NCBI GenBank assembly: GCA_016946835.1
Contig: JACVTC010000138.1
Span: 450,001 to 482,500, forward strand
Reading direction: 5' to 3'
DNA length: 32,500 bases
Origin: Neocallimastix lanati (nom. inval.)
Lineage: Eukaryota > Neocallimastigomycota > Neocallimastigomycetes > Neocallimastigales > Neocallimastigaceae
Position numbers and translations under genes: made by a program. Every line of letters begins with the position of its first letter. The stretch's first letter is position 1. Positions 14,519-28,552 of this stretch are shown here, in pieces. A model generated the notes under the pieces. It saw nothing but the letters and a program-made list of their open reading frames with translations. It was not told the origin of the DNA and searched no databases.

Positions 14519-16085
14519 TTAATCTATAGGATTAAAACCGATGGAACTTCCACTTGATTCTGTGTCAGAATCTTCATTTGTTTTTTTAGTTTTAGTAGTA
14601 GTATTTGAAAATGATGTTGAATTTTTAATTGATTTATTGTAATGATATTGTATAATTTTTAGTGATATATTAGAAATATTGGAATGAGCTTTTGGTTTAT
14701 AAATTTCATCCAGTATACCTATTGATTTTTGTGATCTTTTCTTTTTGATCTTTTCTTCATTTGAACTTTCTTTGAAATTATTTATTAATTCTTTAATCAT
14801 TAATTCTTCTTCTTTATTATCACTAAAATGAAATATTCTTAAGAAATAAAGAAGTACATAATTAGACAATGTGAAAAGAATTAATATAAAATCATGTATT
14901 ATAAAATATGCTTTATAATCATTTAATCGAGATTGATGTATAATGATAAAAAGGGTAATGAAAAAAATACTAAAATAAACAGAAACAATTAAAAATCTAA
15001 CATCATGTTGTGTTGTTTCAATATTCCATTCAACAAAAATTAGAAAGAGGATAATCAAATAATATATCACTTTAATAAAAAATAATGAAAATACAATAAT
15101 TTTCTGAAATGCGGTGATTATTCCACATTTTTGAAATAACTGTCCATATTGGTTGGATACCGTTCTCACTTTAAACGGTGAAAGAAAAATTAAAATACTT
15201 ATTAATATTGTATCAAAGATAATAAAAATGAGTAAAAACGAATATTTATGATTTTTTACCCATATTGATATTTTATTTTCTTCTGGAAAGTTTGAAATTA
15301 ATTTATATAATAATGGTACTGAGCATAAAATTGTACCATAGGATAATAATATCAATCTTAGTGTGCAATTTGTTGGTGTTACCCTTCCAAAATATGTAAA
15401 CGATGTCGATAAAGTTAAAATACATCCAAATACAAGTAAAATCCAAAATGATTTGGGTAAAAATATATAGGAAAATTCAAATTTTCTAATAAATAGAAAA
15501 CTCAATGATAACAAAATAACTAATAATATGGTACTTAATATAATCATAAATACTAATCCAAGAAGTGAATCTTCTGATTTATAGGATATAAAATAGATAT
15601 GTGTCATATCATAAATTTGGTTTAACACCTCAGATGCGCTCTTAATATTATATAAAAATTCATATATTAAGGACTTACATTTTAAATAATAATCAAAGTA
15701 GTCTTTTACATTTGAACTTGATTGTATTAGAGGCTGAATCATTCTAATAAATCTACAATTAATAACTTTACATATTTCATCATCTCTATAAAATTTAATT
15801 ATTCCTGAATAGAATCCATAGTTATATACAAGTCTTTTCTGTGTTTCTTCGGATGTCATATAAGTTACTACTTTTGCAGCTGCTAATTTTTTTTCATCAC
15901 TCGAATAAACACTTATACCTAAATTAAATCCACCTAAACATGATGCAGACATACCTTCTTTCATACCAGGTATAATAGTTTTTTCATATTTAGGACTTGA
16001 ATAAGTATCCCAGTATTTTACAAATAATGCTTTTTCTTCTGTTAATTTTTTATAAATTAAATCATTACTACTTGGAATACCTGGA

Positions 16086-18370: not shown

Positions 18371-18481
18371 TTTTTAATAATAATACATGATTTAATATTT
18401 TTATATTCATAAAAATTACATTCGATGGAACGTACATATTTATTATATTAAATACATGACTTATTAGAAATAATATAAAAG
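18371..18481. repeat. 111-bp direct duplication flanking the young element, left copy
   Basis: Equals 21662-21772 apart from G18424 versus A21715. The last base overlaps the first G of the 5' LTR. Confidence 0.9.
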
Positions 18482-18840
18482 TTAGAAAATTAGTATTTTT
18501 AGTTTATAAATTTAATTAACATTTTAATTAATATTTTTATTTTATTACAACTTTTATTATAATTTTAAATATTAAATAGTTTATTATAAATAAATAGGAT
18601 ATATTATATTAATATATAGTTTATATAGTTTATGAATATAGTTTTAAAAAATTTTTATTTTTATAAGCCTCTTTTATATAGTTAATATTAAAACATGTAT
18701 TTAATGTATTAAAATATGTATGATCCATCAAATGTATTTTGTATGTATAAATAACATTAAATTATGTATTCTTAAAAAATAAGCCTTTTGCTTCAAATAA
18801 ATAAAGTTAATAAAAAAACAAATATTGAGATTTTTTAACA
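18480..18840 (+). repeat. 5' LTR of the young element
   Basis: 361 bp ending GATTTTTTAACA. The expected TGTTAG start reads AGTTAG here, so the terminal T is missing or replaced by the left flank. Contains AATAAA-like signals near its 3' end. Confidence 0.92.
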
Positions 18841-18855
18841 GATTAAGAGTCTCAT
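18841..18855 (+). promoter_or_regulatory. Primer-binding site complementary to the anticodon arm of tRNA-Lys(CUU)
   Basis: GATTAAGAGTCTCAT directly follows the LTR. Its complement ATGAGACTCTTAATC is the start of the anticodon arm of eukaryotic tRNA-Lys(CUU) as I know it (for example human: GAGCATGAGACTCTTAATCT), through the anticodon CUU to the 3' side of the stem. This implies priming by a 5' tRNA half of about 39-40 nt. Confidence 0.65.
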
Positions 18856-18903
18856 TTGACTCGATAAGTTTGTGTGGAAATTTAGAATACTTAGTTAATT
18901 AGG

Positions 18904-19085
18904 AAATTTAGTAATTTAGTAATTTAGTAACTTAGTAACTTATTAATTTAGCAATTTAGTAATTTAGCAATTTAGTAATTTAGCAATTTAGCAATTTAGT
19001 AATTTAGTAATTTAGTAACTTAGTAACTTATTAACTTAGTAATTTAGTAATTTAGTAATTTAGTAATTTAGTAATTTAGCAACAT
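18904..19085. repeat. AATTTAGT octamer array in the element's leader
   Basis: About 22 copies of AATTTAGT with variants AATTTAGC, AACTTAGT and AACTTATT, between primer-binding site and gag. It is inside the transcribed leader of the element. Confidence 0.85.
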
Positions 19086-19284
19086 AGTATAATTAGGATA
19101 TTTAAGATTAACAATACTTAAATATACACATAAGTAAATAAGAAACACATCAGAATTAGGAAATTAGTATTTGAATGTTTCTTATATAATTTAGTAATTA
19201 GAATTTAGAAATAGTAATTAGCAATTTATAATTAATAAACAAATTCATTAAATAATATTAAAAATATATTATTACATTTAAGAA

Positions 19285-20928
19285 ATGACCGGAACAACTA
19301 GAACAGTTCTTAATAGGATGGAATATGTCCTAACAGAAGATAACTACGATGAATGGTATGAAGACTTTATCCTCGAACTCCAAGGCGCTGGATTAAGTGA
19401 ATACGTAGAAAAAAACATAGATGATATAGTAAAAGAAGTAGAGAAGAAATATACAACCAAAGATAAGAAGGGAAATAATATCTTATCTGAAGAAGGCGAA
19501 AACAAAATTAAGGAACATAAAATGAACAACTTCAAAGTTTTGAGTTTTTTAAGAAAATCTGTTGATGCAAAAATAAAATCCTTTATTAGAAGTAAGGAAG
19601 AAGAAAAAAATTCAGCATACTTAATATTAAAGGTACTAAAGAAGAAATACCACGAAGAAGAATTCAATGAAATACCAAAACTCTACAGAAGATTAGAAAA
19701 TATGAGGGCCGAAAGCGATAAAGAAACTTTAGAATACATCGAAGAATTTTTAGAAATCACGCAAAAGTTAGGAAAATTAAATAATAAACTTAGCAATAGG
19801 GAAAAATTAAACTACTTGTTTAAAGGACTACCAGAGAAACAATTAAATTTCTTAGAAATAAGATACAGTATCTCAGAAGACGTCGATGAAATATTAGAAG
19901 ATATGAAGAAGCAAATTAGAAATCGTAGAATCTTTATCCCAGGAAAAAATAAAGAAAAAGAAGAAGAAATATCACAAATATCCAAAGGAAAAAATAAGAA
20001 TAAAAATAAAGACAAAGGCAATAATTACGAAAGTTGTGATGAAGACGATATCTGCGAGAAATTCAATAATAAAAGAAGTATAAATAATAAGAAAAAGCGT
20101 TGTTATTTATGTGATAGTGAAAACCATTTAGTTTACAACTGCCCCTTTAACCCTAAGAATCCTCATAACAATATTAAACACATAGCAGAACAATTCCAAA
20201 AATTAAATATTTCAGTTGATGAAATAAACGATATTGAATTATGTTATGACAGTGATTCGGATAGCGATAGTAGTATAGTTAAAATAAAAGAAATAAATTT
20301 AATTGAAACTGAAAATAGTACAATGGAAACAAATTTATGTGAAATAAGCACCACTTCAGAAGAAGAAAAAGAAGATAATAATGATAATCAATATTTAGAA
20401 TTTAAAACTATAGATGATATAAGAAAATTCAATTATGACACAAATTATTGTAATAACAGTAGTGATAACAACAAATTTAAAAATAATAACACACCGAATA
20501 AAACAGAAAACACAAATATTTTTCAAAAGGAAAATAATATTATTTATGATTTAAATAATTATATTATTAATGGTATTTATAATAGCAATGAATATAATAA
20601 CGGTAATTATAAGAATTTAGGTATAAATAGTAACATACATAATAATGAAAAAGAAAGTATGAATAAAAATAATATTTTGAATAATTACCAAAATTATGAA
20701 AATGAAAATCCTGTTACGATAGATAAATATGTAATTGAATCATTTCAAGATAAAATAAACAAAACAAATTGTAAATTGAATAAATTATTGAAATGTTTGA
20801 GTGAAATTGAAGAAAAGAACAATAACATCCAGAAAATTATTAAAGAATATTTACAAATTATGAGATTTGATAATACTTATGAAAATTATGAAAAATATAT
20901 GAAAATAATTAATATAACAATATTTTGA
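19285..20928 (+). CDS. Gag polyprotein of Ty1/copia-type retrotransposon, 547 aa
   Basis: Start ATG 19285 has A at -3 and is the first in-frame Met. Residues about 10-230 form a helical copia-type (UBN2-like) capsid region: YILTEDNYDEWYED-like opening (YVLTEDNYDEWYED), then IPKLYRRLENMR, TLEYIEEFLEITQKLGKL, SNREKLNYLFKGLPEKQLNF, the usual order in copia Gags. Residues 230-270 are Lys/Asn-rich. Residues 273-286 are a CCHC zinc knuckle, CYLCDSENHLVYNC (C-x2-C-x4-H-x4-C), for RNA binding. Residues 320-545 are an unusual acidic then Asn-rich extension ending in a predicted coiled coil (KLNKLLKCLSEIEEKNNNIQ). It forms the virus-like particle that packages the element's RNA. Intact frame and matching LTRs suggest it is still mobile with a helper. 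Confidence 0.9.
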   Translation: MTGTTRTVLNRMEYVLTEDNYDEWYEDFILELQGAGLSEYVEKNIDDIVKEVEKKYTTKDKKGNNILSEEGENKIKEHKMNNFKVLSFLRKSVDAKIKSFIRSKEEEKNSAYLILKVLKKKYHEEEFNEIPKLYRRLENMRAESDKETLEYIEEFLEITQKLGKLNNKLSNREKLNYLFKGLPEKQLNFLEIRYSISEDVDEILEDMKKQIRNRRIFIPGKNKEKEEEISQISKGKNKNKNKDKGNNYESCDEDDICEKFNNKRSINNKKKRCYLCDSENHLVYNCPFNPKNPHNNIKHIAEQFQKLNISVDEINDIELCYDSDSDSDSSIVKIKEINLIETENSTMETNLCEISTTSEEEKEDNNDNQYLEFKTIDDIRKFNYDTNYCNNSSDNNKFKNNNTPNKTENTNIFQKENNIIYDLNNYIINGIYNSNEYNNGNYKNLGINSNIHNNEKESMNKNNILNNYQNYENENPVTIDKYVIESFQDKINKTNCKLNKLLKCLSEIEEKNNNIQKIIKEYLQIMRFDNTYENYEKYMKIINITIF

Positions 20929-21203
20929 ATGTTAATTACGATAATCCAGGAAATGAAATTGAAAAAAGTGTAAACAAAAATAGTCTAGGCAAAAAAACTG
21001 GTGAAAATTATAAATATATGAAGAAAAACATTTTTTCAGAAAAAAATTTTTTTAATAATAAAAATTTGTCAAAAATTGATCAAAAATTAAAAATTAATAC
21101 GAATGAGCAAAATTTGAAATTTAATTATAATGTACATGCGTTTGAATTTAAATCTGATTCGTTAGCTGAGAAAAATTTAGGTTGTACTACTACAGATAAA
21201 TAA
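20913..21203 (+). CDS. Small frame overlapping the end of gag in the -1 frame
   Basis: Opens after a stop at 20910-20912, overlaps the last 16 nt of gag and runs to TAA at 21201-21203. It has no early ATG, so expression would need a -1 frameshift or a downstream Met. The sequence is Lys/Asn-rich (NVNYDNPGNEIEKSVNKNS, later NVHAFEFKSDSLAEKNLG) and not recognised. It may be a leftover of the deleted protease/pol junction or an accessory product. Confidence 0.4.
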   Translation, partial: YNNILNVNYDNPGNEIEKSVNKNSLGKKTGENYKYMKKNIFSEKNFFNNKNLSKIDQKLKINTNEQNLKFNYNVHAFEFKSDSLAEKNLGCTTTDK

Positions 21204-21291
21204 GAATTATTAGCAAATTAGTAAAGATATAAAAATATTAAAAAAAATAGCAAATTTTCTTATTAAACAAAGATTTTACAATACTTTGTTT

Positions 21292-21300
21292 AGGGGGGAA
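21292..21300 (+). promoter_or_regulatory. Polypurine tract
   Basis: AGGGGGGAA directly abuts the TGTTAG start of the 3' LTR. It is the expected plus-strand primer site for reverse transcription. Confidence 0.9.
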
Positions 21301-21661
21301 TGTTAGAAAATTAGTATTTTTAGTTTATAAATTTAATTAACATTTTAATTAATATTTTTATTTTATTACAACTTTTATTATAATTTTAAATATTAAATAG
21401 TTTATTATAAATAAATAGGATATATTATATTAATATATAGTTTATATAGTTTATGAATATAGTTTTAAAAAATTTTTATTTTTATAAGCCTCTTTTATAT
21501 AGTTAATATTAAAACATGTATTTAATGTATTAAAATATGTATGATCCATCAAATGTATTTTGTATGTATAAATAACATTAAATTATGTATTCTTAAAAAA
21601 TAAGCCTTTTGCTTCAAATAAATAAAGTTAATAAAAAAACAAATATTGAGATTTTTTAACA
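21301..21661 (+). repeat. 3' LTR of the young element
   Basis: 361 bp, TGTTAG ... TTAACA, with TGTTA/TAACA terminal inverted repeats. Identical by eye to 18481-18840. Confidence 0.93.
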
Positions 21662-21772
21662 TTTTTAATAATAATACATGATTTAATATTTTTATATTCA
21701 TAAAAATTACATTCAATGGAACGTACATATTTATTATATTAAATACATGACTTATTAGAAATAATATAAAAG
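21662..21772. repeat. 111-bp direct duplication, right copy
   Basis: Copy of 18371-18481 that continues without a break into the rest of the older inverted LTR (…AAAAGAGGCTTATAAAAA). Confidence 0.9.
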
Positions 21773-24999: not shown

Positions 25000-25093
25000 C
25001 ATTATTGATTATGTTTTTGATCTTAAGCCTAATTCTAAGTTATATTATAATGAAATCTACCCTTTTTACTCTTCCTGAAGAAATATAAGGATA
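25000..25093 (+). pseudogene. Reverse transcriptase N-terminal fragment
   Basis: DYVFDLKPNSKLYYNEIYPF, then a frameshift into TLPEEI, is the Ty3/gypsy RT opening (H-D-Y-x-I-x-L-x-P ... Y-P-L-S-x-x-E). The catalytic palm is absent. Confidence 0.75.
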
Positions 25094-25378
25094 TTAAAAA
25101 AAATAAAAATAAAAAAATAAAAATAAAAAAATAAAAATAAAAAAATAAAAATAAAAAAATAAAAATAAAAAAATAAAAATAAAAAAATAAAAATAAAAAA
25201 ATAAAAATAAAAAAATAAAAATAAAAAAATAAAAATAAAAAAATAAAAATAAAAAAATAAAAATAAAAAAATAAAAATAAAAAAATAAAAATAAAAAAAT
25301 AAAAATAAAAAAATAAAAATAAAAAAATAAAAATAAAAAAATAAAAATAAAAAAATAAAAATAAAAAAATAAAAATAT
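25094..25378. repeat. 14-bp satellite (AAAAAAATAAAAAT)n
   Basis: About 20 regular copies alternating runs of 7 and 5 A. It lies exactly where RT core and RNase H would be expected in the gypsy relic. Confidence 0.9.
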
Positions 25379-25384
25379 ATTCAT

Positions 25385-25749
25385 TCTTGTAATGTTTGCT
25401 ACTCTTTCAAAGGTTCTTATGGTTTACTTAAAATCTTTACCTATTGGTAATAATCTTTTGGAATCAATTTCATTGGAATTTATTTAAGACTTTCCCCTCT
25501 TCCAACGGAACGACTTGAAGTCTTGTGGTAACTGATCGATTTAAGAAGAAGGCTTATTTTGTACCTTTCGAATTAAGTTCTTTCTGCTGAGGTTTGTGCT
25601 AAACAATTTTTTAATTCCATTTTCAAACTTCACGGTCTTCCAAAGGATGTTGTGTCGGTAAGAGGTACTCAGTTTACTTCTAAACTTTGGAATAGAATAT
25701 TTAATTTACTCCATGTTGAACCTTCACTTTTCCTCTGCTCATTATCAGC
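25385..25749 (+). pseudogene. Integrase, zinc-binding end and catalytic core, first part
   Basis: SCNVCYSFKGSYGLLKSLPI matches the CxxC end of the integrase zinc domain and its linker. The SISLEFI block has Glu in place of the first catalytic Asp. HGLPKDVVSV-RGTQFTSKLW has Val in place of the second catalytic Asp. Frameshifts occur between blocks. Confidence 0.82.
25745..25749. repeat. Target-site duplication TCAGC, left copy
   Basis: Matches 26480-26484 exactly and brackets the TG..CA insert. Confidence 0.75.
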
Positions 25750-28530: not shown

Positions 28531-28552
28531 GAGTTAGATGACACTCTTATTC
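28531..28552 (-). promoter_or_regulatory. Primer-binding site of the relic, tRNA-Lys(CUU) anticodon-arm type
   Basis: The minus strand reads GAATAAGAGTGTCATCTAAC and TC right after the LTR end. It agrees with the young element's GATTAAGAGTCTCATTTGAC, TC at 18 of 22 positions although the LTRs themselves differ. Confidence 0.6.

Follow-up and report, generated by a model that had tools for sequence, protein, structure and literature searches.

A primer-binding site complementary to the anticodon arm of tRNA-Lys(CUU) suggests half-tRNA priming of Ty1/copia-type elements in Neocallimastix lanati

Introduction

Which tRNA, and which part of it, starts reverse transcription in an LTR element whose primer-binding site (PBS) appears to face the inside of a tRNA? 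This question is raised by a locus on contig JACVTC010000138.1 of the anaerobic gut fungus Neocallimastix lanati (nom. inval., Neocallimastigomycota), where we analysed a stretch of 32,500 nt (positions 450,001 to 482,500, forward strand), hereafter the window. To our knowledge, the cleavage that yields half-tRNAs and the factors that set the length of a half-tRNA PBS are poorly known beyond copia and Ty5. A reading of the window made from its sequence only had proposed that the bases directly behind a 5′ LTR pair with the anticodon arm of tRNA-Lys(CUU), that the element primes with a 5′ half of this tRNA cut near nucleotide (nt) 40, and that this would constitute a variant of the copia mechanism. 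Here, we describe the element, the fit of its PBS to the tRNAs of the same genome, and the abundance, limits and surroundings of this site across the assembly.

Results

A gag-only Ty1/copia-type element in the window

The element occupies positions 18480-21661 (plus strand) and comprises two LTRs, the PBS, a gag-like open reading frame (ORF) and a purine tract. Its 5′ LTR (18480..18840, +) ends in ..TTTTTTAACA and its 3′ LTR (21301..21661, +) is not followed by a PBS; both are 361 nt long and mismatch at 1 of 361 positions (363 nt at 99.7% in blastn), the first base being A in the 5′ LTR and T in the 3′ LTR. As the sequence-only reading had stated, the PBS, GATTAAGAGTCTCAT, begins at the first base after the 5′ LTR, at position 18841. 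The leader contains 8-base repeats of the AATTTAGT type (18897..19087, +, limits approximate; family D2 of the repeat listing), and the gag-like ORF of 547 aa (19285..20928, +) carries a copia-type gag domain according to Pfam (PF14223, E 1.3e-6, above cut-off) together with a CCHC knuckle that scored below its cut-off. A G-rich polypurine tract identified by inspection, AGGGGGGAA (21292..21300, +), adjoins the 3′ LTR, giving the Ty1/copia layout, in which two LTRs enclose an internal region that has the PBS at its left end and the polypurine tract at its right end. We found no pol (protease, integrase, RT-RNase H) in this copy, whose only ORF of at least 120 aa is the gag-like one; indeed, only ~360 nt separate the gag stop from the purine tract, too few to accommodate pol. 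The window element is a non-autonomous copy and, being gag-only, needs Pol from elsewhere.

The element is flanked by 111-nt copies of one sequence (18371-18481 and 21662-21772) that have 1 difference between them, without a 5-bp duplication. By eye, the 111-nt flank looks like part of an older, reversed, related LTR that extends to ~21961; break repair, recombination or assembly are possible origins of the two copies. The window also holds a second, decayed PBS on the minus strand (28539..28552, 2 mismatches), followed by what by eye resembles the sequence of another family of elements, L010 (see below).

The PBS fits the anticodon arm of tRNA-Lys(CUU)

The PBS, GATTAAGAGTCTCA (18841..18854, +), is the exact complement of nt 27-40 of tRNA-Lys(CUU), since T27-C40 of this tRNA in the same genome reads TGAGACTCTTAATC and pairs with PBS bases 1-14. 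The claimed complementarity to the anticodon arm thus held exactly for 14 nt, whereas the 15th base (T, 18855, +) lies opposite G26 and offers only a possible G-U wobble. The tRNA with the required anticodon arm is present in this genome: ARAGORN identifies tRNA-Lys(CUU), a strict pattern yielded 73 gene matches over the whole genome, and a script read the gene in 15 of 30 fetched loci, the remaining 15 being on the minus strand. When compared over the whole length of 11 tRNA species, the window site scored 14 with Lys(CUU) and 7 with the next best, Ala; these species are those of the fetched arrays and form an incomplete tRNA set, so another isoacceptor could in principle score higher. Judged from sequence, the PBS targets the anticodon stem-loop and implies a primer end near nt 40, as in hemiviruses.

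An intact tRNA 3′ end might nevertheless prime the element, with the internal tRNA-Lys match a coincidence, given that priming from the 3′ end is the general case (PMC8515867). In the normal 3′-end register, however, the window site never exceeded 5 of 18 matches with any of the 11 species, and no better or longer 3′-end match was found within this incomplete set. Moreover, the PBS does not start with TGG, the complement of CCA, and a coincidence would have to extend to a 14-mer that is common to 72 loose families (described below), which makes 3′-end priming extremely improbable.

The site is abundant and follows LTR ends

To place the window copy in its genomic context, we searched the assembly (199 Mb in 762 contigs; AT-rich in the stretches read). 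The PBS extended to a 15-mer ending in T occurred 668 times genome-wide, and 1,234 occurrences, tRNA genes included, were counted for the 15-mers ending in A, C or G; the reversed-pattern control gave 0 in both cases. Without the 73 tRNA genes, ~1,830 non-tRNA copies of the 14-mer remain, an abundance that is not due to chance. We read 161 copies, namely 160 of the 200 listed places on contigs C1-C21 plus the window copy, and in these the 14-mer comes after LTR-like ends. Ungapped single-linkage grouping by LTR end or downstream sequence gave 72 loose families, a number that varies with the cut-offs because of the single linkage, and grouped the window copy with loci L015, L028 and L147. By family (n=72), the two bases preceding the PBS were CA in 33, AA in 19, TA in 15 and other in 5. 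Two further groupings, by k-mers (36 clusters) and with gaps, were dropped as they merged unrelated AT-rich sequences.

For several families the LTR boundary could be placed. In a family bearing reverse transcriptase (RT), a 247-nt repeat terminates exactly at the PBS, being identical before the PBS in L191 and L192 and past the 3′ end (L193); in L070, L075, L083 and L085, a repeat terminates at most 1 nt from the PBS. A check of 3-kb loci found a second copy-like match in 11 of 60, only some of which end at the PBS, while the remaining loci showed no second LTR terminating at the PBS in the mostly short stretches examined. Many elements are probably longer than these stretches.

An 18-mer combining LTR end and PBS also matched 2 viral contigs outside this genome. 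We rejected this as chance, the match lying in both contigs in a long ORF among phage-like ORFs and no LTR being found.

Carriers of the site encode copia-type proteins

Taking 1.5 kb on each side, we found ORFs of 130 aa or longer downstream of the PBS in 25 of 60 loci. Pfam was run on 20 of these 25 ORFs (leaving out L069, L074, L075, L079 and L088): at E<=0.01, 17 matched either a copia gag domain (PF14223, PF17241) or Pol_BBD (PF22936), a domain of pol, and 13 of the 20 lay above the curated cut-off. The ORF of L071 had zinc knuckles only, and those of L016 and L062 had no Pfam match. We also paired copia RT matches (PF07727) with PBS sites on contigs C1-C23, for which the PBS-site lists are complete, which covered 12 of the 150 listed RT matches, 76 of the 100 listed sites ending in T and 99 of the 100 listed sites ending in A, C or G. 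In nine of these 12 cases, a PBS on the same strand precedes the RT match by 2.7-5.3 kb; the distance is 4.49-4.50 kb in six of them, which are probably one family. The other three have no listed PBS, and 1.1-1.2 kb of sequence at the expected distance contained no site at up to 4 mismatches; truncated elements or a different primer are possible reasons. Beyond these 12, the RT match at C24:1841893 has a PBS 4.9 kb upstream. Judged by their gag and RT-bearing relatives, the carriers belong to Ty1/copia.

Sharp edges of the site point to C40 and to the vicinity of G26

We next considered where exactly the site starts and ends. With PBS bases 1-2 left free after CA, GA was kept in 95 of 100 listed sites (977 genome-wide; control 0), which places the start of the PBS across from C40, outside the loop. 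When bases 11-16 were left free (787 sites; reversed control 14), base 14 was A in 98 of 100 listed sites, and base 15 was T in 42, A in 32, G in 22 and C in 4. The 161 copies read gave a similar picture at base 15 (T 71, A 47, G 40, C 3), the perfect complement C being rare.

These limits also bear on the idea that the sites, whose letters are tRNA-derived, are dispersed tRNA-Lys pseudogene fragments and not PBSs. Such an origin is at odds with limits fixed at nt 27 and nt 40, with sites that adjoin LTR ends wherever a second LTR is seen, and with the copia gag/pol ORFs that follow the sites on the tRNA-complementary strand; it is refuted for the families examined, and we give it practically no chance. 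The sharp edges of the PBS fit a primer end at C40 combined with a plus-strand stop at G26, and the site in the window is very probably the PBS of a non-autonomous Ty1/copia-type element whose minus-strand primer would be a tRNA-Lys(CUU) 5′ half ending at C40.

G26 of eukaryotic tRNAs is commonly N2,N2-dimethylated (m2,2G). A homologue of Trm1 (PF02005) was matched in this genome by 8 pieces at two places; some of the pieces have internal stops, as would be expected from introns or decay. In HIV-1, plus-strand DNA stops at m1A58 (PMC13191261); by analogy, we infer that G26, expected to be m2,2G, might stop the plus strand and thereby fix the 14-nt PBS. Half-tRNA priming could equally be combined with a length that is given by where the anticodon stem ends (nt 27) or by RT/RNase H geometry and not from a modified G26. 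Nt 27, the first anticodon-stem base, directly adjoins G26, which makes the two limits indistinguishable by sequence, and the stem boundary is an equally simple alternative to the G26 stop. The scarcity of C at base 15 (3/161; 4/100 listed) is what one would expect were G26 never copied into the plus strand, although much of it could also result from drift, the genome being AT-rich. We put the chance that the length has such another cause somewhat short of even.

Complementarity continues into the D arm in some families

If the complementarity to the tRNA continued past the PBS, it would read CGCTCTACCGATTGAGCTAG. We therefore scored the 45 nt after the PBS against tRNA nt 1-26, using one representative per family (n=72) and dinucleotide shuffles. 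Twelve of the 72 families scored at least 7 for complementarity, against 1.1 expected, as compared with 1 family against 1.3 expected in the sense-strand control; two stretches of the tRNA 3′ half that were tested gave 0 and 0 families against 0.5 and 0.13 expected. Exact 5-mers in the register of a straight continuation numbered 20 against 0.66 expected. At register 0, the best family, L120, had matches at 16 of 20 positions (P 1.6e-7 for one family), which survives correction for 72 families, followed by L083 with 14 and by L062 and L067 with 13 each. Near-chance values of at most 8 of 20 register matches were seen in 64 of the 72 families, and exact complementarity to the D arm is slight in the window element. 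All of the seven best families are mismatched at nt 26, and six of them also at nt 25. The D-arm-matching families are probably related: they have further sequence in common, and given this probable shared ancestry the family counts are not independent. The match may serve annealing, or may tolerate over-extended plus strands in the manner of the lentiviral over-extension sequence.

Past the D-arm-like stretch, and within 80 nt after the PBS, the motif AAG[C/T]TAAG occurs in 9 of the 18 family representatives listed (L018, L062, L065, L085, L087, L116, L170, L177 and L184). Its AG[C/T]TA portion could pair with tRNA nt 8-12, placing C/T opposite G10. In L062/L063 and L085/L086, tandem units of ~74-77 bp consist of LTR end, PBS and D-arm-like stretch; these units may represent very small elements or LTR-junction remnants in tandem.

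Inverted repeats beside the PBS and the question of self-priming

In the window, GACTC (18858..18862, +) is an inverted repeat of GAGTC within the PBS (18847-18851) and is predicted to form a 5-bp hairpin with it. GACTC begins at PBS+2 to +5 in 16 of the 72 family representatives, against 0.93 expected (at PBS+4 in the window copy), and PBS hairpins with a stem of at least 7 were found in 8 of 72 families, against 1.5 expected. Both excesses would suit a self-primed element, either Tf1-like from the 5′ end of the RNA or via a cut in the downstream arm of the inverted repeat. For the former, the complement of the PBS anywhere in the window LTR does not go beyond chance (best 6 nt, equalled in 311 of 500 shuffles). 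For the latter, the repeat usually spans only the middle of the PBS, yet bases 1-2 are kept in 95/100 listed sites; as these first bases are usually not reached, the GACTC hairpin would be a poor self-primer. Self-priming also leaves the identity with tRNA nt 27-40 and the D-arm complementarity unexplained, and we consider it very unlikely. The GACTC hairpin may hide the PBS in free RNA.

Another box, GCCGG, follows the PBS in 16 of 25 copies of the L010 family. As a general feature it was rejected, being found in 1 of 72 families and 16 of 161 copies, all in that one family of 25. In L010 it can, by base complementarity, pair with tRNA nt 3-7, a lead from one family. Ahead of GCCGG, a hairpin of different sequence is predicted from PBS+12 in sub-families L010, L016, L030 and L080; it is not predicted in L013, and L020 and L026 fold otherwise.

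Discussion

A tRNA-Lys(CUU) 5′ half ending at nt 40 accounts at once for a site that starts at C40 and ends at nt 27, for the missing 3′-end match among the 11 tRNA species read and for a D-arm complementarity that, in related families, was found for the 5′ half only, so the earlier proposal of a half cut near nt 40 gains support from the site edges and the D-arm complementarity. Under the mechanism that we favour, the primer would end at C40, on the 3′ side of the anticodon stem, its nt 27-40 would anneal to the PBS, and reverse transcriptase would extend C40 into U5. Plus-strand strong-stop DNA would then copy the attached half as far as nt 27, stopping at G26, presumably m2,2G26, to give the 14-nt PBS. 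In some families, the leader RNA might also pair with the D arm, which would aid annealing or match over-extended plus strands, while RT and integrase for the window copy would be supplied by autonomous relatives that share its PBS. A much broader proposition, which we hold to be doubtful, is that Copia of this genome is largely locked to one tRNA half and that the leaders carry its modification map: the PBS would end at the m2,2G26 stop, in one family group, over-extension would match nt 7-24 of the D arm, with nt 25-26 forming an internal loop, and the L010 family would add a hairpin plus GCCGG against the freed acceptor strand (nt 3-7).

Drosophila copia primes with initiator tRNA-Met. The same holds for yeast Ty5 (PMC5371799, in the text available), and this primer differs from the tRNA-Lys(CUU) that fits the window element. 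The exact LTR-adjacent half site for initiator tRNA-Met, CAGGTTATGAGCCC, occurred 0 times genome-wide, a weak control as the tRNA sequence behind it was not taken from this genome. Initiation at nt 40 is in itself well precedented: according to the accessible part of PMC1181622, nt 40 of a half-tRNA, a position within its anticodon stem-loop, provides the 3′-OH from which hemivirus cDNA starts, and such a start in Drosophila copia, 1731, yeast Ty5 and Volvox Osser is the one proposed here for the window element. With Ty5 there is a further likeness, in that the gag of L028, a member of the window's family, matches PF17241, the Ty5 Gag N-terminal region; the window ORF is not among the PF17241 matches listed.

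The closest precedent for the tRNA itself is FunCo1, a clade of fungal Copia elements whose PBS, ATTAAGAGTCT, is described in the available text of PMC5445492 as complementary to an internal region of a D. melanogaster tRNA-Lys gene. This PBS is contained in that of the window element as bases 2-12 (18842-18852), a likeness that concerns the PBS, and it weakens the suggestion of a new variant of the copia mechanism. FunCo1 is reported almost only from Pezizomycotina, and the part of its account available to us makes no mention of tRNA halves, of a stop at a modified base or of contact with the D arm (PMC5445492). Puccinia Copia elements and fungal Helenus TRIMs likewise have PBSs against the tRNA anticodon loop, some of them being non-autonomous as here; the tRNAs named in the accessible portion of that report are Tyr, Ile, Asp and initiator Met, and Helenus LTRs bear tRNA-like sequence (PMC10886601). 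Half-tRNA priming of the lineages Bianca, Osser, Bryco and Gymco-II is described in plants for Ty1/copia only, with just 1/2 tRNA-Met and 1/2 tRNA-Ile reported in the portion available (PMC6317226). The D-arm continuation, for its part, recalls the lentiviral over-extension sequence, a post-PBS complementarity to the primer tRNA that is tied to the m1A58 plus-strand stop; lentiviruses, however, use full-length tRNA-Lys3 primed at its 3′ end, whereas a 5′ half and, by inference, G26 would be involved here (PMC13191261, as far as its text is available).

Priming from nt 40 of a half-tRNA is known from hemiviruses, and a site against an internal part of tRNA-Lys from FunCo1; the system described here is not new in kind. 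A known but unusual priming mode seems to be very widespread in this genome, and what is new, as far as our searches reach, is this scale in a gut fungus, the exact limits of the site, the D-arm continuation and the hairpin beside the PBS. In the open PMC literature, seen mostly as listings, we found no account of a D-arm continuation or G26 limit in half-tRNA elements, nor of the primer sites of gut-fungal elements. If borne out, the leader features could make this group of elements a variant. With ~1,830 14-mers and one defined tRNA, both tRNA cutting and PBS length become testable and, if the proposed priming is true, the spread of a mobile-element population would be tied to how one tRNA is cleaved and modified.

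Additional observations

The tRNA-Lys(CUU) genes lie in arrays (L031-L060; contigs C94, C160, C188, C251 and C252), with Ile, Asn, Lys(UUU), Asp, Gln, Val and Ser tRNA genes nearby, and on C188 and C251 they alternate in orientation at a spacing of ~5.5 kb. This is either an unusually repeated cluster or an assembly effect. Elsewhere in the window, an array of a 14-bp unit of the AAAAATAAAAAAAT type spans 25050-25433, and an ORF at 14519-15964 (-) encodes a class C 7-transmembrane domain (7tm_3, E 1.7e-12) with a weak, under-cut-off match to a bacterial solute-binding protein near its N-terminus. Dockerin-type domains (PF02013) numbered 1,440 candidates in the assembly, of which the best 150 were scored, and were found in 0 of 14 control genomes.
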